Below, in pieces: positions 9,983 to 62,890 of a stretch of DNA of 64,000 bases. The notes below the pieces were generated by a model. It saw only the letters and a list, made by a program, of their open reading frames with translations, did no database searches and was not told the origin of the DNA. Within the stretch, counting starts at the first letter, position 1. Each line of letters begins with the position of its first letter. Position numbers and translations under genes: made by a program. The DNA is from Planctomycetota bacterium (GTDB lineage: Bacteria; Planctomycetota; SZUA-567): NCBI GenBank assembly GCA_031261425.1, contig JAISJR010000054.1:1-64000 (forward strand), in the 5' to 3' direction.

Positions 9983-10494
9983 CAGCGGTCTCCCGTTTTG
10001 GTCAGCATTATCGACCGCACGAGCACGCGCGCCAATTCCTGCAACGCCGCGTCCATCGCGTTGTCGCCGCCGTCGCCGCTTGCCGGATAATAACGTCCCG
10101 CCAGCGTGCTGGACTGGCTACTGCTGACTTCGCGGTTTTCAATCAAAAACGAATTGCTGGCGCGGTCGAACAACGAAAATCGCGCGCGAATCGTCGTCTG
10201 CATATTGCGCGGCTGATTGTTGGCGTCGTATTCCAACACCGTTTGCCGCACTTCGATAATCGTGCCGCTCAATTCCGCGTCGGCGTGGTCGTTGACGACG
10301 GTATAGCGCGGCGAGCGCCCGATTTCCGCAATCAAATTGCTCGTCAATTGACCTTCGATGCTCAAATATTCCGTCGAATTGCCGAAAACGCCGACGGAAA
10401 ACGAATGGATGCTCGCCGGCAGGCGCGTCTGCGTCGAGTAAGCGCAACCGGCGACAACCACCAACGCCAGCGTCAGAATTTTTCGGAGTAGCAT
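9982..10494 (-). CDS. lptE: LPS-assembly lipoprotein LptE-like
   Basis: A 170-residue lipoprotein. The signal peptide MLLRKILTLALVVVAGC has its lipobox cysteine at residue 17. The mature part starts AYSTQTRLPASIHSFSV and continues FGNSTEYLSIEGQLTSNLIAEIG and DAELSGTIIEVRQ, the pattern of the LptE family that plugs the LptD barrel and helps deliver lipopolysaccharide to the outer leaflet. This implies an LPS-bearing outer membrane. It is translationally coupled to the downstream HEAT-repeat gene. LptE proteins diverge strongly, so the assignment rests on the lipobox, size and fold pattern. Confidence 0.75.
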   Translation of the reverse strand: MLLRKILTLALVVVAGCAYSTQTRLPASIHSFSVGVFGNSTEYLSIEGQLTSNLIAEIGRSPRYTVVNDHADAELSGTIIEVRQTVLEYDANNQPRNMQTTIRARFSLFDRASNSFLIENREVSSSQSSTLAGRYYPASGDGGDNAMDAALQELARVLVRSIMLTKTGDR

Positions 10495-10534
10495 AGTTCT
10501 TCCTTATTTGGAGAAATTAAAGAGTGGACAGCAA

Positions 10535-10645
10535 GCAGAGTTTAGAGTTGAGAGATTGGAGTTTAGAGAGTGGAGTTTTATTTTTATAAAAAGCGCGAAG
10601 CGCAACCTCTGCTAAACTCTCAACGCTGAACTCTGCTTACCGCTC
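10535..10645. repeat. Family B palindromic element
   Basis: GAGTTTAGAG words facing AAACTCTCAAC words around the core AAGCGCGAAGCGCAACC. The remainder of the gap to 10813 shows no gene apart from a perfect 24-bp GC-only palindrome at 10697-10720. Confidence 0.8.
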
Positions 10646-10813
10646 ACTCTTTATCGGTCAAACGTCGCCGATGACCGCAATTTTTGGCAAGTTTTTGCCG
10701 CGGCGGCGCGCCGCCGCGGCGAGCCGCCGCGCCAACGCGACATTTTTTATTTTCAGATTTGACGCGGCAAAGTCGATAAAGCGGACGTTTTTTCGCGCAC
10801 GGAGGAATGACGA

Positions 10814-16800: not shown

Positions 16801-17085
16801 ACCAGCGGCGTGTCGATGCCGACGCTGATTAACGACGCGATTAACCAAACGCTGACGCGCACGGTCGTTACCTCGGCGTCAACCTTGTTGGTGGTGGTCA
16901 TTCTGCTGTTTTTGGGCGGCGAAGCGTTGCGCGGCTTTTCGTTCGTGTTGTTCGTCGGGATTATCGTCGGCACGTATTCGTCCATCTTCGTCGTCGCGCC
17001 GGTGCTGGTGGAATGGGCGCTCCGGCAAGAGCGCCACAAAGAACGCCAAGCCCAAGCCCGCGTGGAGTCGGCGAAAAAGGGGTGA
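13843..17085 (+). CDS. secDF: Fused SecD-SecF protein translocase subunit
   Basis: A 1080-residue inner-membrane protein combining SecD (to about residue 650) and SecF (after it). SecDF uses the proton gradient to pull secreted proteins through SecYEG. The first membrane helix is FWQWTVVVAVGVFAFAA; the SecD motif GLDLRGGTEMQL is near residue 183 and the SecF motif DFTGGVL near 692. Two sets of membrane helices surround IAGLVLTIGMAIDANILIFERI and MVGYSINDTIVVFDRIREN. The ATG at 13843 follows AGAGGAAC; an earlier in-frame start would run through the repeat. Fusion is normal in several phyla. It forms a functional unit with yajC upstream. Confidence 0.97.
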   Translation: MEMLSSLHFWQWTVVVAVGVFAFAASAKNRIVPAKLAVMFGLTALVLLQMFKTAAPKETLLDAGIRQLAAKLETDALRPDMPPQFASTIEPLVALNLKPDHGGDAATPLLADLEKYQYPADYLKARVDELVSAWKTRAESSLPALKAQLAALKKIDRPTPAQQAEIVKLNAVIPAWYDNLPLKFGLDLRGGTEMQLRLRPDTARLEKLRHDLAERQAAGNNDDALNEEIKTEREALAENFRNAANVIRNRLNASGLEEISVTVQGGDKLLVQIPGMSADGAQSIIDRVKRMGQLEFRIAMEGVDNELVHEIKNLAADNPRDLRNYSRAAHRFLDENEVSIDRNGRRRGTSGEELYDYLHTDDGAAMVISQEIELTGDYISTARAAPDAEHPGNYMISFTLTPRGSFLFENITRNNLKRGLAIILDGKLKSAPTIQSVISHSGQITGNFSREEAESLEVILKDSLKTQVEVEFENTVGPSLGEDNIRQSIVAVVAGIALVLIFMLVYYRVAGVISDLVLSINFLFIVGLLSAFDATLTLPGIAGLVLTIGMAIDANILIFERIREEAGRGNTLPRAIKLGYERAFVTIIDANLTTLIVAVILDQFGTEAVRGFAKTLIVGTVCSVFTSVVLTRWCFDALLAWGWLRELKMAQFFTRPNIQFVKVRRYAFAVSTVCIIAGMALFAARGNKNLAQDFTGGVLAQISLTQPLTLAEARAKATDISRDLDVQRFGEPVNGKYGEFIVRTSRIKDDANPELDGAYTVAELRQKLAAHFALQPNGLTVSAERVAAKSTPELAVFAAKISLTAPLSAAELHKTLTTNTVLKNIEVTDGANGELQIFAGLPLLAPDGAQRGDADVAALVRDQLQRLRDLGILQFTEPFPRFSTVGPAAADEMIVSAIGALVFAMIVISAYIWLRFQFRLTFGIAAIVGLAHDVLFCLGALALVDYLGLLNGQISLVVVAGLLTMVGYSINDTIVVFDRIRENMRLTSGVSMPTLINDAINQTLTRTVVTSASTLLVVVILLFLGGEALRGFSFVLFVGIIVGTYSSIFVVAPVLVEWALRQERHKERQAQARVESAKKG

Positions 17086-17168
17086 GGGGGCGACGCATTA
17101 AAATAATTTTATCGTTAGATTTCATTTCGCGATTTTTGATAATCAAGCGCAAAGACAGGAGAATACCC

Positions 17169-18269
17169 ATGCTGAAAAAATTCGGATTGTTGTCGCTCCT
17201 CGTCGCGGCGTTTTGGGGCGGCGTTAGCGCCGGCGAAACGGCGCCGCCGGCGGTGTTGGTCGCGGTGGACAAGGCGGTTGAATTAGACGAAAGCGGCGTC
17301 AAAAAATATGTCGGCGCGGTCGAGCCGATTGAAGACGTTACGCTCCGCGCGCGCGTCAGCGGACGGTTGGAGTCCATCAACTTCACCGAAGGCGACAAGG
17401 TTAAAGCCGGCGAGTTGTTGTTTGAAATCGAAAAAGACATCTACGAAGCCGAATACAAAGAGGCGCAGGCGTTGCTCGAACAAACCCACGCCGCGCTGAT
17501 TTTCGCCGAACAGAATCACGCGCGGCAGGTTGACCTGTCCAAACAAAAAGTCGTCGCCAAAAAAGAATTGGAAGACGCCGAGCGCGCCCTGCGCACCGCC
17601 ACGGCGGCGGACGCGGCGGCGAAATTCAAACTCGTCGTGGCGGAAAAGAATTTTTCCTATTCGCGCGTCGTCGCGCCGATTAGCGGTCGCATCGGCAAAG
17701 CGGCTTACACGCGGGGCAATTATTTGAACGCGGCGACGACGCCGGAGTTGGCGACCATCGTGCAAACCGCGCCGATTTACGTCCGCTTTGCGATGAGCGA
17801 GCCGGATTTTGCCTCAATGTTCGGCGGCAACGCGGAGAACTGCAAAAAAGAAGCCGTCGTGCGCGCGCGCGCCGCCGACCGGACGCTGTTGAACGAAACC
17901 GGCGCCGTGACGCTCGTCGATAACCGCATCGACCCGACGACCGGCACCATCAAAATCTGGGCGACGTTCGCCAACGCCGATGAAATTCTGACGCCGGGCG
18001 GCATGCTCGACGTGATTATCACCAAAAAGACGGCGCAAAAAGTCGCGGCGGTGAAAGTTACGGCGGTGCTGATGCGCGACGACGGGCATTACGTTTATGT
18101 GGTCAGCGCCGGCAATAAACCGGAGTTGCGAGCGGTCGAAGTCGGCGACGTGATTGGCGATTTGCAAATAATTACTAAAGGCGTCGAAGCGGGCGAAACG
18201 GTCGTCGTCGAAGGCACGCACAAAATAATGCCCGGCGGCGCGATTAGAACGGCGGAGAGCGGCAATTAA
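17169..18269 (+). CDS. RND efflux membrane fusion (adaptor) protein, AcrA/MexA type
   Basis: A 366-residue periplasmic adaptor that links an RND pump to an outer-membrane channel. The signal peptide MLKKFGLLSLLVAAFWGGVSA is followed by the lipoyl-like halves (RVSGRLESINFTEGDKVKAGELL; SYSRVVAPISGRIGKAAYTRG) flanking a coiled coil (residues about 90-150), then beta-barrel and membrane-proximal domains (DPTTGTIKIWATFANADEIL; VKVTAVLMRDDGHYVYVV). AGGAG precedes the ATG. The matching pump lies at 20564, but about 2.3 kb of unrelated DNA (PIN pair, transposon-like repeat, beta-lactamase) now separates the two, apparently by insertion. No outer-membrane factor is present nearby. Confidence 0.92.
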   Translation: MLKKFGLLSLLVAAFWGGVSAGETAPPAVLVAVDKAVELDESGVKKYVGAVEPIEDVTLRARVSGRLESINFTEGDKVKAGELLFEIEKDIYEAEYKEAQALLEQTHAALIFAEQNHARQVDLSKQKVVAKKELEDAERALRTATAADAAAKFKLVVAEKNFSYSRVVAPISGRIGKAAYTRGNYLNAATTPELATIVQTAPIYVRFAMSEPDFASMFGGNAENCKKEAVVRARAADRTLLNETGAVTLVDNRIDPTTGTIKIWATFANADEILTPGGMLDVIITKKTAQKVAAVKVTAVLMRDDGHYVYVVSAGNKPELRAVEVGDVIGDLQIITKGVEAGETVVVEGTHKIMPGGAIRTAESGN

Positions 18270-18348
18270 CGAAAATTACGAATTGCGAAACCGGAAACCG
18301 TAGCGATGGGATTGACGGTCAAAATTGCGCGAAAGGAAACGGTGGAAA

Positions 18349-18840
18349 ATGCTTAGAAAACCGACTATCTATCTTGAAACGTCAATCATCAATTATTTAT
18401 TCGACGATGACAAACCGGAAAAACAACGCGACACGCGGCGGCTGTGGAACGAGATTAAAGCGGAAAAATACACGGTAGTGATTTCCGATGCGGTGATGTT
18501 CGAGATAAACAAGTGTCCGCCGGAATTTGCCGAGAAACAACAAAAAATGATTGATGAAATAGGGCGTATTAATTACAGCGAAATTAAAGTGATGGAAAGA
18601 CCGGAAGCCCTTGATTTGGCCAATGCCTACATTGATGCCGGCGGTTTACCGCCGCGTTGTAAAATGGACACTCTCCATATCGCCGCCGCGACGCTGGCAA
18701 ATTGTGATTTTATTTTGTCGTGGAATTTTACGCACATCGTGAAATTGAAAGCAATGCAAGCCGTGAAAAAAGTCAATGCCGATTGGCTGTGTAAATCGTT
18801 GGAGATTTTGTCGCCGACAATCTTTTTAGGGGAGGAATAA
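18349..18840 (+). CDS. PIN-domain ribonuclease, toxin-like
   Basis: A 163-residue PIN-domain protein. It starts MLRKPTIYLETSIINYLF with the first catalytic acidic residue; others are in ISDAVMFEINKCP, CKMDTLHIAAATL and ILSWNFTHIV. PIN proteins are metal-dependent RNases, commonly the toxin of VapBC-like modules. The ATG at 18349 is preceded by GGTGGAAA. The small gene that starts two bases after its stop is the likely partner, so the toxin comes first, opposite to most VapBC pairs. It lies in the segment that splits the RND efflux genes. Confidence 0.82.
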   Translation: MLRKPTIYLETSIINYLFDDDKPEKQRDTRRLWNEIKAEKYTVVISDAVMFEINKCPPEFAEKQQKMIDEIGRINYSEIKVMERPEALDLANAYIDAGGLPPRCKMDTLHIAAATLANCDFILSWNFTHIVKLKAMQAVKKVNADWLCKSLEILSPTIFLGEE

Positions 18841-18842
18841 CT

Positions 18843-19013
18843 ATGGATGAAACCATTAGAATGTTACACGAAATTCGGCAGAAACTCACTGAACGATGGG
18901 ATAATATGACGCCGGAGGAAGCCCGCGCCGACCGCGAACAACAACTCGCCGAAATGCACCGGCGCATCGGCAAGCCGCCACGCAGAATTATTGAGGTCGA
19001 AGTGCCGGTGTAA
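18843..19013 (+). CDS. Small partner protein of the PIN toxin, antitoxin candidate
   Basis: A 56-residue frame beginning MDETIRMLHEIRQKLTERWD and ending RIIEVEVPV. It is charged and helical, with MTPEEARADREQQLAEMHRR in the middle. Short proteins of this look often follow PIN genes that begin with YLETSxxNY, so I infer an antitoxin. The GGGGAGG at the end of the toxin gene serves as its ribosome site and the 2-base spacing points to coupled translation. No DNA-binding motif can be named with confidence. Confidence 0.7.
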   Translation: MDETIRMLHEIRQKLTERWDNMTPEEARADREQQLAEMHRRIGKPPRRIIEVEVPV

Positions 19014-19033
19014 CACTAAAAAATAAGAATTAA

Positions 19034-19265
19034 AACTCACGTTACGCGCAAAAAAAAGCCACGAATGAACACGAAAAGAACTTAACCCGAATTTTCACGA
19101 ATTAGACGAATTAACACGAAACCGAGCGAAGCGAAGGTTAGTGTGCTTTCCAAATTTTTTGTCCGTTTTCCGGCTCTTTAACTTCGTGTAATTCGTGGAC
19201 AAAAAAATCTCTCTTTTTTATGCGTAAAAATTCGCGTCTTTTTGTTGACCGACGTAAGTCGAGTT
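19034..19265. mobile_element. Family C MITE-like element with 9-bp target duplication
   Basis: A 232-bp element with termini AACTC...GAGTT, inner CACGAATTA arms and core GAGCGAAGCGAAGGTTAG. AAGAATTAA occurs immediately before the left end (19025-19033) and immediately after the right end (19266-19274), as expected for a target-site duplication. No transposase is encoded. Confidence 0.75.
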
Positions 19266-19367
19266 AAGAATTAAAAATTCACGAATTACGAATGACTCTA
19301 ACCTACAAGAAGGAAGCGGCGCAATTGGGCTATCGTGTGTGGAAAATCTCTATGAAGGAGAAGTCCG

Positions 19368-19394
19368 TTGCATTTCATTTCGCCCGATTATAAA
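19368..19394 (+). promoter_or_regulatory. Possible promoter of the beta-lactamase gene
   Basis: TTGCAT and TATAAA are separated by 15 bases, about 45 bases before the start of the metallo-beta-lactamase. The spacing is short. The surrounding 19275-19436 shows no other gene. Confidence 0.3.
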
Positions 19395-19436
19395 AGTGAA
19401 ATATGGATTCCGGTTATTAAACAGGATTAGCATAAA

Positions 19437-20189
19437 ATGAAGACACATCTGTTTTTTCTTTTTATATTGTTCATTCAGTTACCTTTACGGGCGCAATCCG
19501 ATTACCCGAAGATACGGATTTCCGAAGACGTCGAATTGATAAAACTTTCGGAAAAGGCATACGTTCATGTATCTGTTTCTGAAATAGACGGATTCGGCAA
19601 AGTATCTTCCAACGGCTTGATTTTGATAAAGAATGGCGAAGCATTTCTTTTTGATACTCCGGTAACTGACAGTCAAACGGAAACTTTGGTGAAATGGATT
19701 GCCGATTCGTTAAAAGCCGCTGTTTCTACTTTCGTTCCCAACCATTGGCACGAAGACTGTCTCGGCGGCTTGGATTATCTTCATTCAAAGGGTGTAAAAT
19801 CATACGCCAATCAGATGACGGTTGATTTGGCAAAAGAACATGGAAAGCCTGTTCCACAAAACGGATTTACAGATTCCCTGCAATTAAACCTGTATGAAGA
19901 ATATGTTTACTGTTATTATTTGGGTGGCGGTCATTCAACGGATAATATTGTGGTTTGGATTCCTTCCGAAAAAATCCTGTTTGGCGGATGCATGGTAAAA
20001 GACATTCATTCCAAAGGACTTGGAAACCTGTCGGATGCCCAACCGGAAGAATGGGCAAAAACCATTCAAAAAGTGATTGAGAAGTTTCCCGAAGCAAAAA
20101 TTGTCATTCCGGGGCATGGAGGGATTGGCGGAAAAGAATTATTGCAGCATACAAAAGAATTATTACAGCAACATTTAAAAATAAAATAA
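19437..20189 (+). CDS. Subclass B1 metallo-beta-lactamase, CfiA/CcrA-like
   Basis: A 250-residue secreted zinc enzyme predicted to hydrolyse beta-lactams including carbapenems. The signal peptide is MKTHLFFLFILFIQLPLRA. All B1 zinc ligands are present: H103, H105 and D107 in NHWHEDCLGG, H166 in GGGHSTDN, C185 in FGGCMVKD and H227 in PGHGG. Blocks such as YANQMTVDLAKE, NGFTDSLQL and TDNIVVWIPSEKILFGG match from memory the CcrA/CfiA enzyme of Bacteroides, so this is that branch rather than a generic MBL-fold hydrolase. Codon use is clearly more AT-rich than in neighbouring genes, suggesting transfer, probably from Bacteroidota. It lies between the split halves of an efflux operon. Confidence 0.93.
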   Translation: MKTHLFFLFILFIQLPLRAQSDYPKIRISEDVELIKLSEKAYVHVSVSEIDGFGKVSSNGLILIKNGEAFLFDTPVTDSQTETLVKWIADSLKAAVSTFVPNHWHEDCLGGLDYLHSKGVKSYANQMTVDLAKEHGKPVPQNGFTDSLQLNLYEEYVYCYYLGGGHSTDNIVVWIPSEKILFGGCMVKDIHSKGLGNLSDAQPEEWAKTIQKVIEKFPEAKIVIPGHGGIGGKELLQHTKELLQQHLKIK

Positions 20190-20191
20190 TA

Positions 20192-20281
20192 TGGAAACAA
20201 AGAAACAGATTAATCACGTTGGTCTTAACCGCCGGCGCGTTGATGCTATCCGGTAATGCAACCGCTCATCAGGCGGAACTA
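20192..20281 (+). pseudogene. Possible remnant of a secreted-protein gene
   Basis: In one frame this reads WKQRNRLITLVLTAGALM then LSGNATAHQAEL and a stop. That looks like the signal peptide of an exported protein, but it has no start codon and no mature part. It lies directly after the beta-lactamase and before a truncated family G repeat, and may be debris from the same insertion. Confidence 0.25.
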
Positions 20282-20310
20282 TGATGGGGTAGTTACAATA
20301 TTAGGACAAT

Positions 20311-20490
20311 GCCGCGTTTTGGCGAACCGCTCTCGCCGCCGGAGGCGGCGTTTGCCGCCGCAAACCGCGCGGGCGACTGTCGGATGGTTTCATTCAATCA
20401 ATCGCTACCCAGAGGTTGCGGCGCAAAGAATGCGCGCCTTACCCTGGGCTAATATATTTTGCGCTTTCAGCGCGAACCGGCGGAATAAAT
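20311..20490. repeat. Family G element, truncated copy
   Basis: It matches the right-hand portion of the complete element at 43915-44203 (GCCGCGTTTTGGCGAACC, GGAGGCGGCGTTTGCCGCC, CTTACCCTGGGCTAATAT, GCGCTTTCAGCGC). The left arm is missing. Confidence 0.8.
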
Positions 20491-20563
20491 TATCAAAACA
20501 GAACCTGTCGCGTAACACTTAATTCTTAATTAAAAAACCACCCCCTCCAAGGCAGTCCCGACC

Positions 20564-23500
20564 ATGATGATTTCTCAGACCTTTATCGACAAACCGAAGT
20601 TGGCGATGGTGATTTCCATCGTTATCACGTTGCTCGGCATCTTGTGCGTTCTGCAAATTCCGGTGGCGGAATATCCCGAAGTCGCGCCGCCGCAAATCGT
20701 GGTCAGCGCCACTTACCCGGGCGCCAGCGCCGAAGTCATCGCCGACACCATCGGCGCGCCGATTGAGGCGGAAATTAACGGCGTGGACGATATGCTGTAT
20801 TTTTCCTCCGACTCGAACAACAACGGCACGTATTCGCTGTCGATTTCTTTCGAGCCGAATTCCAACGACGACATCGCGCAAGTCAACGTGCAGAACGCCG
20901 TCCGCCGCGCCGAGGCGAAACTTCCCGCCGAAACCCGCGCCCTCGGCGTCAACGTGATTAAGCGCTCCACCGATATTTTGGGGTTGTTCGTCTTCACCAT
21001 CGACGAGACGCAAACTCAAATGTCGATGTTGGAATTGGGCAATTACGTGCGGATGAACGTCAAGGACGAATTGGCGCGCATCCCCGGCATCAGCCAAACC
21101 GAGATTATGGGCGCGAGCGAATACGCGATGCGCATTTGGCTGGACCCGATGAAAATGGCGGAATTGGGCATTTCTCCCGGCGACCTCGCGAGCGCGATTA
21201 AGTCGCAAAATTTACAAGCCGCCTCCGGCACCGTCGGCTCGGAAAACAGCAACGATTATTTGCAACTAAAAGTCAACACGCTCGGACGGCTGAATACGCC
21301 CGAACAATTCGGCGACATCGTCGTGCGCACCACCGCCGACGGGCGGGTCGTGCATTTGCGCGACATCGCCCGCGTGGAACTCGGCGCCGACAGTTATTCG
21401 TGGAACGCGACTTTTAACGGCAAGCCGATGGCGGCGCTGGCGATTTATCGCAACACCGGCGCCAACGCCCTCGCCGCTTCCAACGCCGCCAAAGCGCGCG
21501 TCGCCGAGTTGGCGAAATCGTTTCCCAAAGGCGTGAGCGTGCGCGTCGGCTATGACCCGACGAAATTCATCCGCGCCAGTATGAAAGAAATTATCGAGAC
21601 CTTGGTTTTGACGTTAATTTTAGTCGTCGTCGCCACCTATCTTTTTCTGCAAAGTTGGCGGGCGACGATTGTGCCGGCGCTGGCTATTCCGGTTGCCTTG
21701 ATGGGAACGTTTATCGTTTTGTATTCGTTCGGTTTTTCCGTCAATTTGCTGACGATGTTCGCTTTAATTCTCGTCGTCGGCTCGTTGGTTGACGACGGGA
21801 TTATCGTGGTGGAAAACGTTACCCGCCTGATGCACGAAGAAAAATTGTCGGCGCGCGCGGCGACGATTAAAAGTATGAAGCAAATCACCGGCGCGATTTT
21901 GGCGACGACGTTGGTGAACATCGCCATCTACGCGCCGATTGGTTTTTACGGCGGGATGGTCGGCACGATTTACAAACAATTTTCGGTTACCATCTGCGTC
22001 GGTCTGGTCTTCTCGACCATCAACGCGCTGACGCTCAGTCCGGCGCTCTGCGCGATGATTTTACGCGCCAACGACGCGCCGAGCCGCCTCTTCGCGCCGT
22101 TCAACCAAGGGCTGAATTTTTCGCGCAACGCCTATTTGACCTGCGCGAAATTTTTAGTGCGCAAATCGTTGCTCACGCTCGTTATTTTTCTCGCGGTGTT
22201 AGGGCTGGGGTATGTGACCCACGGCTCGCTGTTTCCTTCGTTTTTGCCGCCCGAAGACAAAGGCGGCGTATTGACCGCGATTGAACTCGCGCCGGGCGCG
22301 ACGTTGGCGCGGACGCGCGATGCCGCCGCCGCCTTTTCCGAAAAAGTGAGGAAAATCGACGGCGTGCAGGATGTCGTCGTCGTCAACGGTTTTAGTTTTA
22401 TGGGCGGACAAGGCGAAAACTTAGGTCTGGCGATTATCGAGATGAAGCCGTGGGCGGAGCGCCAAACGCCGGCGTTGCAAATTGATTCCATTATGCGGCA
22501 GGCGCAAACGGCGGCGGCGCAAGTGCCGGCGGCGCGGATTAACGTCTTTCAGCCGCCGGCGATTATGGGCTTGGGCATCAGCGGCGGCGTTACGTTTATG
22601 ATGCAGGCGAAAGCCGGACAATCGGCGACGGAACTCGAAACCACGCTGAACCGGCTGTTGGTCAAACTGAACGCCGCGCCGGAAACGATGCTGGCTTTCT
22701 CGCCGTATAACGCCAACACGCCGCAGTTGTTCTTGGACATCGACCGCGAAAAAGCCCAAATTATGAACGTGCCGACCGACATTATTTTCTCGACGTTGCA
22801 GGCGAATTTGTCCGATTTTTACGTCAACGATTTCAACCTCAACGGCTTTTCGTTTAAGGTGAAAATGCAAGCCGCGGGCGGCGACCGCTCGAACATCGCG
22901 GACATCGAGAAAATAAATTTAAGTAGCACGACCGGCAAGTTAGTGCCGCTCTCGGCGGTGGCGAGCGTGCGCTACGCGGTCGGTCCGCGGGTGGTTACCC
23001 GTTTTGAGCAAGCGCGAAGCGCCTCCGTTACGGCGATGGCGAAACCGGGCGTCAGTTCGCACCAACTGATGACGCGGATTGAAGAAATTATTCGGCAGGA
23101 TTTTCCCGGATATGGCGTCGCGTGGACGGATATGAGTTTTCAGGAGCGCGGCAACGCCGGGAAAATCGGCTATTTGATGATGTTGTCGATGATTTTCGCC
23201 TATCTGTTTTTGGTGGCGCAATACGAGAGTTGGACGATGCCGCTCTCGGTGGTGGCGTCGGTGGCGGTGGCGTTGCTCGGCGCGGTGGTCGGGTTGAAAC
23301 TCTACGGTATGACCATCAGCATCTACGCGGAATTGGCGTTTATTATGCTCATCGGGCTAGCCGGCAAGAGCGCGATTTTAATGGCGGAATTTGCCAAGCA
23401 GGCGCGCGAAGACGAGGGACTGCCGATTGCGGTGGCGGCGGAAAACGGCGGGCGGGTGCGTTACCGCGCGGTGTTGATGACGGCGTGGTCGTTTTTGATT

Positions 23501-23701
23501 GGCGTGTTCCCGATGGTGGTCGCCACGGGCGCGGGCGCGGGCAGTCGTAAAGCCATCGGCATCCCGACTTTTTCGGGAATGTTGCTGGCGTCGGTGGCGG
23601 GCATCGTGTTGGTGCCGCCGCTCTACGCGATGTTCCAAAAAATGCGCGAGTATTTCAATCCGCTGAAACCGAAACCGGTGAACGAAGGCGCGGAAATATA
23701 A
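20564..23701 (+). CDS. RND multidrug efflux transporter, AcrB/MexB (HAE1) type
   Basis: A 1045-residue inner-membrane proton antiporter that exports drugs from the periplasm in complex with an adaptor and an outer-membrane channel. The start TFIDKPKLAMVISIVITLLG is the first membrane helix. Two periplasmic porter regions and twelve helices follow. The proton relay is intact: paired aspartates in VGSLVDDGIIVVENV (near residue 410) and the lysine in GLAGKSAILMAEFAKQ (near 933). The start motif VAEYPEVAPPQIVV is typical of HAE1 pumps. Two ATGs are adjacent (20564, 20567). Its adaptor gene is at 17169-18269; the pair is split by inserted DNA that includes the beta-lactamase. Confidence 0.96.
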   Translation: MMISQTFIDKPKLAMVISIVITLLGILCVLQIPVAEYPEVAPPQIVVSATYPGASAEVIADTIGAPIEAEINGVDDMLYFSSDSNNNGTYSLSISFEPNSNDDIAQVNVQNAVRRAEAKLPAETRALGVNVIKRSTDILGLFVFTIDETQTQMSMLELGNYVRMNVKDELARIPGISQTEIMGASEYAMRIWLDPMKMAELGISPGDLASAIKSQNLQAASGTVGSENSNDYLQLKVNTLGRLNTPEQFGDIVVRTTADGRVVHLRDIARVELGADSYSWNATFNGKPMAALAIYRNTGANALAASNAAKARVAELAKSFPKGVSVRVGYDPTKFIRASMKEIIETLVLTLILVVVATYLFLQSWRATIVPALAIPVALMGTFIVLYSFGFSVNLLTMFALILVVGSLVDDGIIVVENVTRLMHEEKLSARAATIKSMKQITGAILATTLVNIAIYAPIGFYGGMVGTIYKQFSVTICVGLVFSTINALTLSPALCAMILRANDAPSRLFAPFNQGLNFSRNAYLTCAKFLVRKSLLTLVIFLAVLGLGYVTHGSLFPSFLPPEDKGGVLTAIELAPGATLARTRDAAAAFSEKVRKIDGVQDVVVVNGFSFMGGQGENLGLAIIEMKPWAERQTPALQIDSIMRQAQTAAAQVPAARINVFQPPAIMGLGISGGVTFMMQAKAGQSATELETTLNRLLVKLNAAPETMLAFSPYNANTPQLFLDIDREKAQIMNVPTDIIFSTLQANLSDFYVNDFNLNGFSFKVKMQAAGGDRSNIADIEKINLSSTTGKLVPLSAVASVRYAVGPRVVTRFEQARSASVTAMAKPGVSSHQLMTRIEEIIRQDFPGYGVAWTDMSFQERGNAGKIGYLMMLSMIFAYLFLVAQYESWTMPLSVVASVAVALLGAVVGLKLYGMTISIYAELAFIMLIGLAGKSAILMAEFAKQAREDEGLPIAVAAENGGRVRYRAVLMTAWSFLIGVFPMVVATGAGAGSRKAIGIPTFSGMLLASVAGIVLVPPLYAMFQKMREYFNPLKPKPVNEGAEI

Positions 23702-23764
23702 AGGTTGGCGGCGGGAAAAAGCGAGGAGGAGGCGTCGAAAACAACCGAAGCGAGAGTAAAAATT

Positions 23765-24004
23765 ATGCAAACCTTTAATTTCAGCGAAGTGAAAGCCAAT
23801 TTTGCCGGCTTGCTCGAACAAGTGGGGCGCGGGCAGTCGTTTATTATCGCGAAAGCGGGACGACCGTTGGCGAAAATCGTGCCTTGCGACGTTCCGCGCC
23901 AAGCGTCGCGGCTCGGTTTTATGGAGGGGCAAGCGACGGTCGCGGCGGACATCAAAGAGGTGGGAAAAAAAGAAATTGCGGCAATGTTCGGGCTGAACCG
24001 ATGA
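23765..24004 (+). CDS. Phd/YefM-type antitoxin
   Basis: A 79-residue antitoxin starting MQTFNFSEVKANFAGLLEQV, the standard Phd/YefM N-terminus that forms the DNA-binding dimer, followed by IIAKAGRPLAKIVP. The flexible C-terminal half would wrap and block the PIN toxin encoded next. The stop codon overlaps the toxin start by four bases (ATGA). Such proteins usually repress their own operon. The ATG at 23765 is preferred; an upstream in-frame TTG would add 20 unrelated residues. Confidence 0.9.
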   Translation: MQTFNFSEVKANFAGLLEQVGRGQSFIIAKAGRPLAKIVPCDVPRQASRLGFMEGQATVAADIKEVGKKEIAAMFGLNR

Positions 24005-24396
24005 AAATTCTTCTCGATACGCACATATTGATTTGGGCAACCGCGAACACCGGCTTACTACCGAAAAAAGCCCGCCAACTTATCGAAGACGCCGACAATG
24101 AATTGTATTTTAGCGCGATTAGTATTTTCGAGGTGGCGCTGAAAAACGGTTTGCAAGCGGCGGATTTTCGTTTAGACGCCGCGCGGTTGCGTTCCGGTTT
24201 GCTTGCCGCCGGTTACATCGAATTGCCGGTTACCGGCGAACATGCCGCCGCCATCGGCGGTTTGCCGTTTTGGCATAAAGACCCTTTTGACCGGTTGCTG
24301 TTATCGCAAGCGCAATGTGAAAATATCAAGTTGCTCACCGCCGACCGGCGATTAGCCAAATATGATGTGCCGATGATTTTTGTCCGCCGCCGATAA
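24001..24396 (+). CDS. vapC: VapC-like PIN-domain toxin
   Basis: A 131-residue PIN RNase. Catalytic acidic residues lie in MKILLDTHILIWA (Asp6), ISIFEVALKNG (Glu), HKDPFDRLLLSQA (Asp) and LLTADRRLAKY (Asp). This PilT/VapC branch usually pairs with Phd-type antitoxins, as here. It overlaps the antitoxin gene by four bases, so the two are co-translated. Target RNA is not predictable. Confidence 0.92.
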   Translation: MKILLDTHILIWATANTGLLPKKARQLIEDADNELYFSAISIFEVALKNGLQAADFRLDAARLRSGLLAAGYIELPVTGEHAAAIGGLPFWHKDPFDRLLLSQAQCENIKLLTADRRLAKYDVPMIFVRRR

Positions 24397-24510
24397 CGTC
24401 GAAAAAATGACGAACCGTATCTTTCGCATTTCACTATGGAGAACCCCGATATTTTTTTTGCGTTGGACAAACACGCCGTCTATCGTCGCCGGCGGCGTCA
24501 TCAATGGGAC

Positions 24511-24641
24511 AAACTGAAACGACCAATTTTAATTATCCCATTCACGGGTAACTGAGCCCCGCTTGGGGGCGCTGTTGACGCGTTTCGTGAATGGGCTTTG
24601 GTCGGCCTCAGTTTGGACGCAAAAACGGCGTCCTTTTTTTT
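24511..24641 (+). ncRNA. Structured RNA candidate with intrinsic terminator
   Basis: Three helices stack into one rod: AAACTGA (24511-24517) with TCAGTTT (24608-24614), CGACCAA (24520-24526) with TTGGTCG (24598-24604), and CCCATTCACG (24537-24546) with CGTGAATGGG (24586-24595). The tip has GCCCC/GGGGC. A terminator follows at once: GGACGC, a loop, GCGTCC and eight T. It could be an independent small RNA (6S-like in outline, not shown) or an attenuating leader of the gene at 24697. Confidence 0.6.
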
Positions 24642-24696
24642 ATGCCGGAAATTTGCGCCGTTATTTTTAATTTGGTCTTTTTGGCAAAGGAGAGTT

Positions 24697-25440
24697 ATGA
24701 GAATCGAAATCGGCGAATCGTTGTTTTTTTCGTGGTTGCGGCATGTCAAGGGCTGTCAACTGGTCCAAACCAATTGGAAAACGTCGCCGCAATGGCGCGA
24801 ACTGCAAAACCGCGCCGCGATAGAGCAATTGTTGACCGTTTCGCGCGAATTTTTCCAACGGCAATACGGCTGGGAAATTTACAAAAACAGTTCGCTCGAC
24901 CAGTTGTTGGTGCAGGGTGAAATCGACCTGCTCGGCGGTTGTTTTGCCGGCGACACGGCGAAAATTTACGCGGTCGAGGTCGCGTTTCACGAAAAAGGAC
25001 TGAAATACGGCAACTCGACGCCGGAGATTTGCGCGCAAGTGGTGAAAAAATTGTTGCGCGCGGCGATGGGGCTTGCCGGTTATTTGGGCGTGTCAACCGG
25101 CGAAATAATTTTTGCTTCGCCGAAAATTCATCCCGCCGTCGTCGGCAAATTGACGCCGTGCGTGGCGGAGATTGACCGCTTGTTGCGAGCGGGCGGTTTT
25201 AATTTTACCGCGCGCCTGCTTGCCAATCGGGATTTCGCGGAGCAAGTGATAGAGCCGGTTTTGCTCGCCGGCAAGGAAGTCGCCGACACCACCGACTTTT
25301 TCTTGCGCAGTTACCAATTGCTGAAAATGTTTAAGGTAAAAATTCCGCCCCGCCGCCCGCGGGCGAGTCGCGCACCGACGAGCCGCGCACCGGCAAGCCG
25401 CGCACCGGCAAGCCGCCCGCCGGCGCTACCGGGCGGTTGA
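24697..25440 (+). CDS. Restriction-endonuclease-fold-like protein with repeat-derived tail
   Basis: A 247-residue protein starting MRIEIGESLFFSWLRHVKGC, with AAAGGAGAG before the ATG. The segment GEIDLLGGCF...IYAVEVAFHEKGLKYG has the D...ExA/H pattern of PD-(D/E)xK nuclease-like folds, and GEIIFASPKIHPAV follows. I recall similar proteins of unknown function ending near SYQLLKMF. Here the frame continues for about 30 residues of SRAPA-type repeats made by tandem 15-bp units (25365-25424), so the tail is probably an insertion. It follows a terminated structured RNA that may regulate it. Function unknown. Confidence 0.7.
   Translation: MRIEIGESLFFSWLRHVKGCQLVQTNWKTSPQWRELQNRAAIEQLLTVSREFFQRQYGWEIYKNSSLDQLLVQGEIDLLGGCFAGDTAKIYAVEVAFHEKGLKYGNSTPEICAQVVKKLLRAAMGLAGYLGVSTGEIIFASPKIHPAVVGKLTPCVAEIDRLLRAGGFNFTARLLANRDFAEQVIEPVLLAGKEVADTTDFFLRSYQLLKMFKVKIPPRRPRASRAPTSRAPASRAPASRPPALPGG
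25365..25424 (-). repeat. 15-bp tandem units inside the nuclease-like gene, reverse orientation
   Basis: Four 15-base units (AAGCCGCGCACCGGC type) encode SRAPT/SRAPA. The reverse complement, rotated, is CTTGCCGGTGCGCGG, which differs from the tsaB unit CTTGACGGTGCGCGT at two of 15 positions. Confidence 0.8.

Positions 25441-61347: not shown

Positions 61348-62890
<1,543 letters not shown>

Follow-up and report, generated by a model that had tools for sequence, protein, structure and literature searches.

Among the closest known counterparts of the gene considered here is group B1-3 from the large survey by Berglund and colleagues (2017; PMC5637372), which contains CcrA, MYO-1, and ECV-1. Imipenem was hydrolyzed in E. 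coli by five of the eight members of this group that were tested, and the chromosomal hosts of the group are all Bacteroidetes; its one mobile member is located on a Myroides plasmid (PMC5637372). We analyzed a 64,000-nucleotide stretch of contig JAISJR010000054.1 (the window), taken from an assembly labeled as a Planctomycetota bacterium, which carries an intact B1 metallo-β-lactamase gene of the CcrA branch (bla) at positions 19437–20189 of the plus strand; the assignment draws on the open reading frame, profile matches, fold, and tree. Our results suggest that bla was very probably acquired horizontally from Bacteroidales by a host outside Bacteroidota, through capture of a DNA fragment into an RND efflux locus.

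The open reading frame extends from an ATG start to a TAA stop and encodes 250 amino acids. Its N terminus, MKTHLFFLFILFIQLPLRAQ, resembles a signal peptide when judged by eye, and the protein should be exported. Against the NCBIfam subclass B1 equivalog NF033088, it scored 290.7 bits, passing the cut-off of 200; the best curated match was blaCcrA at 325.8 bits, below the strict cut-off of 550 for that family, and identity to CfiA2 is 59%. A search of the PDB returned B. fragilis CcrA with E = 1.6e-95, and the nearest solved structures were all CcrA. An AlphaFold model built on an alignment of 23 relatives had a mean pLDDT of 91. When this model was compared to known structures with Foldseek, B. 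fragilis CcrA ranked first (rmsd of 0.8 Å, 58% identity) and the top 14 hits were all CcrA (rmsd of 0.8 to 1.3 Å), which places the model in the αβ/βα B1 fold.

The preliminary description of this DNA had reported six intact B1 zinc ligands, and all six are indeed present: H103, H105, and H166 together with D107, C185, and H227, which correspond to H116, H118, and H196 together with D120, C221, and H263 of the B1 ligand set. Neither these residues nor K188 and N197 vary among 23 aligned relatives. By sequence and model, the encoded protein is a predicted subclass B1 metallo-β-lactamase of the CcrA branch, and, by analogy with CcrA, it should hydrolyze β-lactams, including carbapenems, via a di-zinc site. 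The original label “CfiA/CcrA-like” is thus appropriate as far as the branch is concerned, given the fold and the tree considered below, but not for CfiA proper. Strict CfiA/CcrA identity is excluded by the blaCcrA score and by the 59% identity to CfiA2.

HWHED, found in the window protein where CfiA has HWHGD, had been proposed as a change beside the zinc site that may alter activity. While the motif is truly present, it is the norm of the branch: of the 23 sequences in alignment A1, 22 have Glu between the second His and the Asp (L007 has Asn), and Glu is found in DIM-1 as well; Gly occupies this position in CfiA2 and in the partial sequence L019. Glu is the usual state in this branch, and CfiA is the exception. 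Because HWHED is normal in this branch, the motif does not hint at an altered activity of the window copy, and nothing at this position distinguishes that copy from its relatives. In TMB-1, position 119 affects substrate and inhibitor binding, as the title of PDB entry 5MMD indicates.

Among 84,980 species genomes, 27 loci with related genes were recovered, all 27 titled Bacteroidota. The closest protein matches (L002 to L004) are 94 to 95% identical to the window protein and 96 to 97% identical at the DNA level, and DNA identity to L010, from Bacteroides reticulotermitis JCM 10512, is 97%. Such similarity greatly exceeds what chance could produce. Several other locus titles (Cd354, Nc350, Cc175, and TD116) presumably denote termite-gut bins. 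B. reticulotermitis is a gut isolate from Reticulitermes speratus (PMC3924377). Its bla copy (L010, positions 10001–10749) has a single-base gap that corresponds to window position 19929 and is frameshifted; because the draft genome consists of Ion Torrent data (PMC3924377), the frameshift is perhaps a sequencing error.

A tree was calculated for 35 proteins, with partial and very long rows left out. The window protein (P0001) is located in a set of 7 members (support of 98/99), nested in a set of 9 that includes CfiA2 (97/90), and the enclosing branch, which is Bacteroidota-only, is supported at 100/99. B1-like proteins from the host phylum were placed elsewhere, and a constraint uniting them with P0001 was rejected (p-AU = 4.85e-05). 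Placement among native enzymes of the host phylum, which the preliminary description had regarded as fatal to its reading, is thus not what a phylogeny of B1 enzymes reveals. In the host phylum, B1 matches were detected in 5 of 392 genomes, the window’s own included; those in the remaining 4 of 391 are weak (25 to 35% identity), and a search of the 14 other members of the same family for B1 genes returned none. Overall, the window gene is a member of a CfiA sister lineage from Bacteroidales related to termite-gut species.

In L002, L004, L005, and L010, bla is surrounded by an array of GyrI-like/Cass2, isochorismatase-like, CMD, flavodoxin, DUF3788, methyltransferase, and HAD genes, the order of which after bla varies between these loci. 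Two bla copies are present in genome PG1894_169. In L005 (positions 1959–2711), bla is a mosaic: the first 420 bases are mostly 97 to 100% like the window, the last 31 are 100% identical, and the part between them is 57 to 82% identical. Alleles seem to recombine in the Bacteroidales bla array. Window positions 19626–19667 contain eight substitutions in 42 bases relative to L002, L003, L004, and L010, a cluster that is perhaps due to gene conversion with an unseen allele.

The identity of the host was assessed from the 16S gene of the same window (61355–62890, minus strand), as the preliminary description had advised. This gene is 100% identical to that of the same-genus genome G141, 87% identical to that of a same-family genome, and 79% identical to that of a same-class genome. 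Its identity to the genes of two Bacteroidota is 71 to 72%, and the host is therefore no bacteroidete, the condition that the preliminary description had set for its reading. A comparison of the 16S gene with plasmid records showed no close named relative among them. A site for EUB338-II, the planctomycete probe, occurs in the same-class genomes G032 and G094 and in two others; the ordinary probe site is found in most 16S genes read from the host phylum, including the window’s own; and the EUB338-III (Verrucomicrobia-type) site was absent from all of 149 genomes. PSCyt2 domains reach at least 42 copies in some host-phylum genomes, which fits Planctomycetota without proving it. Judging from these sequence markers, the host is most likely a planctomycete. 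Termite guts are known to harbor planctomycetes, including vadinHA49 and Pirellulaceae (PMC7024585 and PMC12159837), and we infer that the host probably shares this habitat with the donors.

In its codon use, bla is foreign to the host, as had been noted earlier, and two measures agree on this. GC3 is 0.38 in bla versus 0.69 to 0.77 in six neighboring host genes, and the codon-frequency cosine is 0.66 to host genes and 0.88 to genes of the donor loci.

The gene sits in an RND efflux locus of the host, inserted between two genes. On the upstream side, the periplasmic adaptor gene (17013–18269, plus strand; TIGR01730, 220 bits; 95% DNA identity to G141) is followed by a PIN-domain open reading frame (18325–18840, plus strand), a small host open reading frame of 56 amino acids (18843–19013, plus strand; 99.5% DNA identity to G141), and a host dispersed repeat (19025–19280; copies 78 to 92% identical). 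A 484-bp segment spanning most of the PIN-domain frame (18348–18831) is absent from G141, in which the flanks corresponding to positions 18347 and 18832 abut exactly, as if the segment had been cleanly inserted or deleted. On the downstream side, a second host dispersed repeat (20311–20500) precedes the efflux permease gene (20564–23701, plus strand; TIGR00915, 1012 bits; 91% identity to the G141 protein). About 40 copies of each repeat family are listed in the 2.6-Mb host genome. Collinearity with G141 holds at 95% up to position 19024, G141 being without the PIN gene, and at 90% from position 20522. Between these points, G141 contains an intact gene for a 662–amino acid membrane protein and a PD-(D/E)XK transposase-family gene. 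Past the permease gene, positions 23702–25392 of the window are occupied by a Phd/YefM antitoxin gene, a PIN toxin gene, and an open reading frame that has no Pfam match; G141 has ~390 bp there.

Foreign DNA extends from 19297 to 20209 (913 bp) and has host sequence on both sides in the one assembly available. It begins with the 3′ end of an open reading frame of 85 amino acids that belongs to no Pfam family (19297–19378, 82 bp, plus strand; 90 to 93% identical to L002, L005, and L010). After an internal deletion of about 880 to 900 bp relative to L005 and L002, or 1481 bp relative to L010, the 3′ end of a GyrI-like/Cass2 effector-binding gene follows (19379–19430, plus strand). Next to bla, a carboxymuconolactone-decarboxylase-family gene (METKKQ...; 20191–20209, plus strand) is represented by its initial 19 bases, in the same order as in L005 (position 2712) and L010 (position 11305). 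The three donor pieces keep the order of the Bacteroidales array, and no further parts of the array were found elsewhere in this genome. Immediately to the right, scraps of the host 662–amino acid membrane-protein gene are recognizable at 20209–20245, 20266–20279, and 20292–20314 (plus strand) by comparison with L064 (8090–10078). At the insert borders, direct and inverted repeats of 6 or more bases are absent, as is a target duplication. No transposase or integrase open reading frame lies beside the insert, and neither 50,697 phage records nor the viral contigs of IMG/VR yielded a match at the sensitivity used.

These features are best explained by illegitimate capture of a fragment, since the insert is a cut-out piece of an array without transposon ends or a target duplication. 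A broken fragment of the Bacteroidales array, consisting of two small-gene 3′ ends, full-length bla, and 19 bases of the gene that follows, and measuring 913 bp after internal deletion, would have been joined to host DNA nonhomologously rather than by transposition. It would have entered the RND efflux locus, which is, to judge from sequence comparison, a variable spot, with the adaptor gene on one side and the permease gene on the other, and the insertion would have wrecked the host membrane-protein gene located there.

Could the piece instead have been misjoined into the host contig when a mixed metagenome was assembled? Such chimerism, which the preliminary description had named as a finding that would overturn its claim, might be favored by the position of bla between two ~40-copy repeat families, which are error-prone for assemblers, and by the fragmentation of the host genome assembly into 104 contigs. 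However, the foreign part is limited to 913 bp, its right junction directly adjoins unique remnants of a host gene, and the host operon extends to either side of it just as it does in G141. An assembler would have had to make two independent misjoins less than 1 kb apart, and the internal deletion of the donor piece is absent from every donor locus found. Collinearity with G141 and the host scraps thus do not bear out a chimeric contig, within the single assembly considered, and we regard a misassembly as highly improbable. A native host-phylum enzyme that merely resembles CfiA can be given practically no credence: although a few genomes of the phylum (G045, G150, and G179) encode B1-like proteins, these are 32 to 35% identical to the window protein and fall elsewhere in the tree, in contrast to the 94 to 95% identity seen with Bacteroidales, and relatives of the same genus and family have no bla. 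The tree and the AU test both speak against a native origin, which we reject.

It is also unlikely that bla arrived on a transposon, integron, or phage and that the ends of this element have since decayed. Reshuffling of the donor array between loci, including a Cass2-type gene (“integron-associated effector binding protein”), and the difference in the DNA beside the insert between the two same-genus genomes would be compatible with such an element. Yet the insert lacks terminal repeats, a target duplication, and a transposase, it begins and ends inside genes, and neither phage records nor viral contigs matched it. Fragment capture from Bacteroidales therefore remains the preferred reading of how bla arrived.

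The horizontal origin is compatible with bla being dead cargo that is not expressed and is heading for decay, which we consider quite possible, if somewhat short of an even chance. No convincing promoter was found upstream of bla, where three sigma-70–like sites in the region compare with 3.1 expected by chance, and the promoter region of the donor operon was not carried over to the window. Because of these two observations, bla may be silent in the host. The loss of promoter-proximal donor genes, the 1167 bp that separate bla from the adaptor gene, and the poor codon match point in the same direction. On the other hand, bla retains an uninterrupted reading frame, and its dN/dS to the nearest relatives L002 to L004 (0.31 to 0.40) is not above the values among those relatives (0.27 to 0.43); the similar ranges give no sign of decay, yet they are no proof of use. 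Transcription might also reach bla from the upstream efflux adaptor gene. The fuller scenario, in which a termite-gut planctomycete gained a working CcrA-branch carbapenemase on a bare 0.9-kb fragment and cotranscribes it with an RND pump, is conceivable but rather doubtful. If true, a B1 carbapenemase gene would have spread across phyla without the help of a mobile element, and in an ecosystem where exposure to drugs is low.

The horizontal transfer itself is well delimited, since both junctions are readable and a near relative shows the site without bla. It suggests that transfer between phyla is possible without a recognizable mobile element. The idea that the host is an environmental reservoir did not hold: the host is so far a single recipient, the only one among 15 genomes of its family to carry bla, and nothing suggests that the gene moves on from there; the evidence points to insect-gut Bacteroidales as the reservoir of CcrA-branch enzymes. 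With one copy and no mobility seen, a clinical risk is not shown. In the open-licence papers searched, there was no earlier report of a CcrA-branch gene outside Bacteroidota and no paper treating cfiA and termites together.

Compared to CfiA/CcrA of B. fragilis (PDB 1ZNB and 1A7T), the window protein has the same fold, the same six zinc ligands, 58 to 59% identity over the mature protein, and a place in the same B1 branch. It differs in having HWHED rather than HWHGD and in falling below the blaCcrA cut-off, and its gene differs in host and neighborhood, with no IS upstream in the window, unlike on plasmid pBFUK1. The termite-gut type bla genes of Bacteroidales (L002 to L006 and B. reticulotermitis JCM 10512) are closer, sharing HWHED and the genes of which scraps flank the window copy, but there bla is part of a complete array of small-enzyme genes in a Bacteroidota genome. 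Relative to group B1-3, to which P0001 is likened via CcrA rather than by placement on the Berglund tree, the window copy resides in another phylum. The chromosomal hosts of that group are all Bacteroidetes (PMC5637372). The proposed new setting is upheld, and the window’s host is the first outside Bacteroidota found here for this known enzyme branch.
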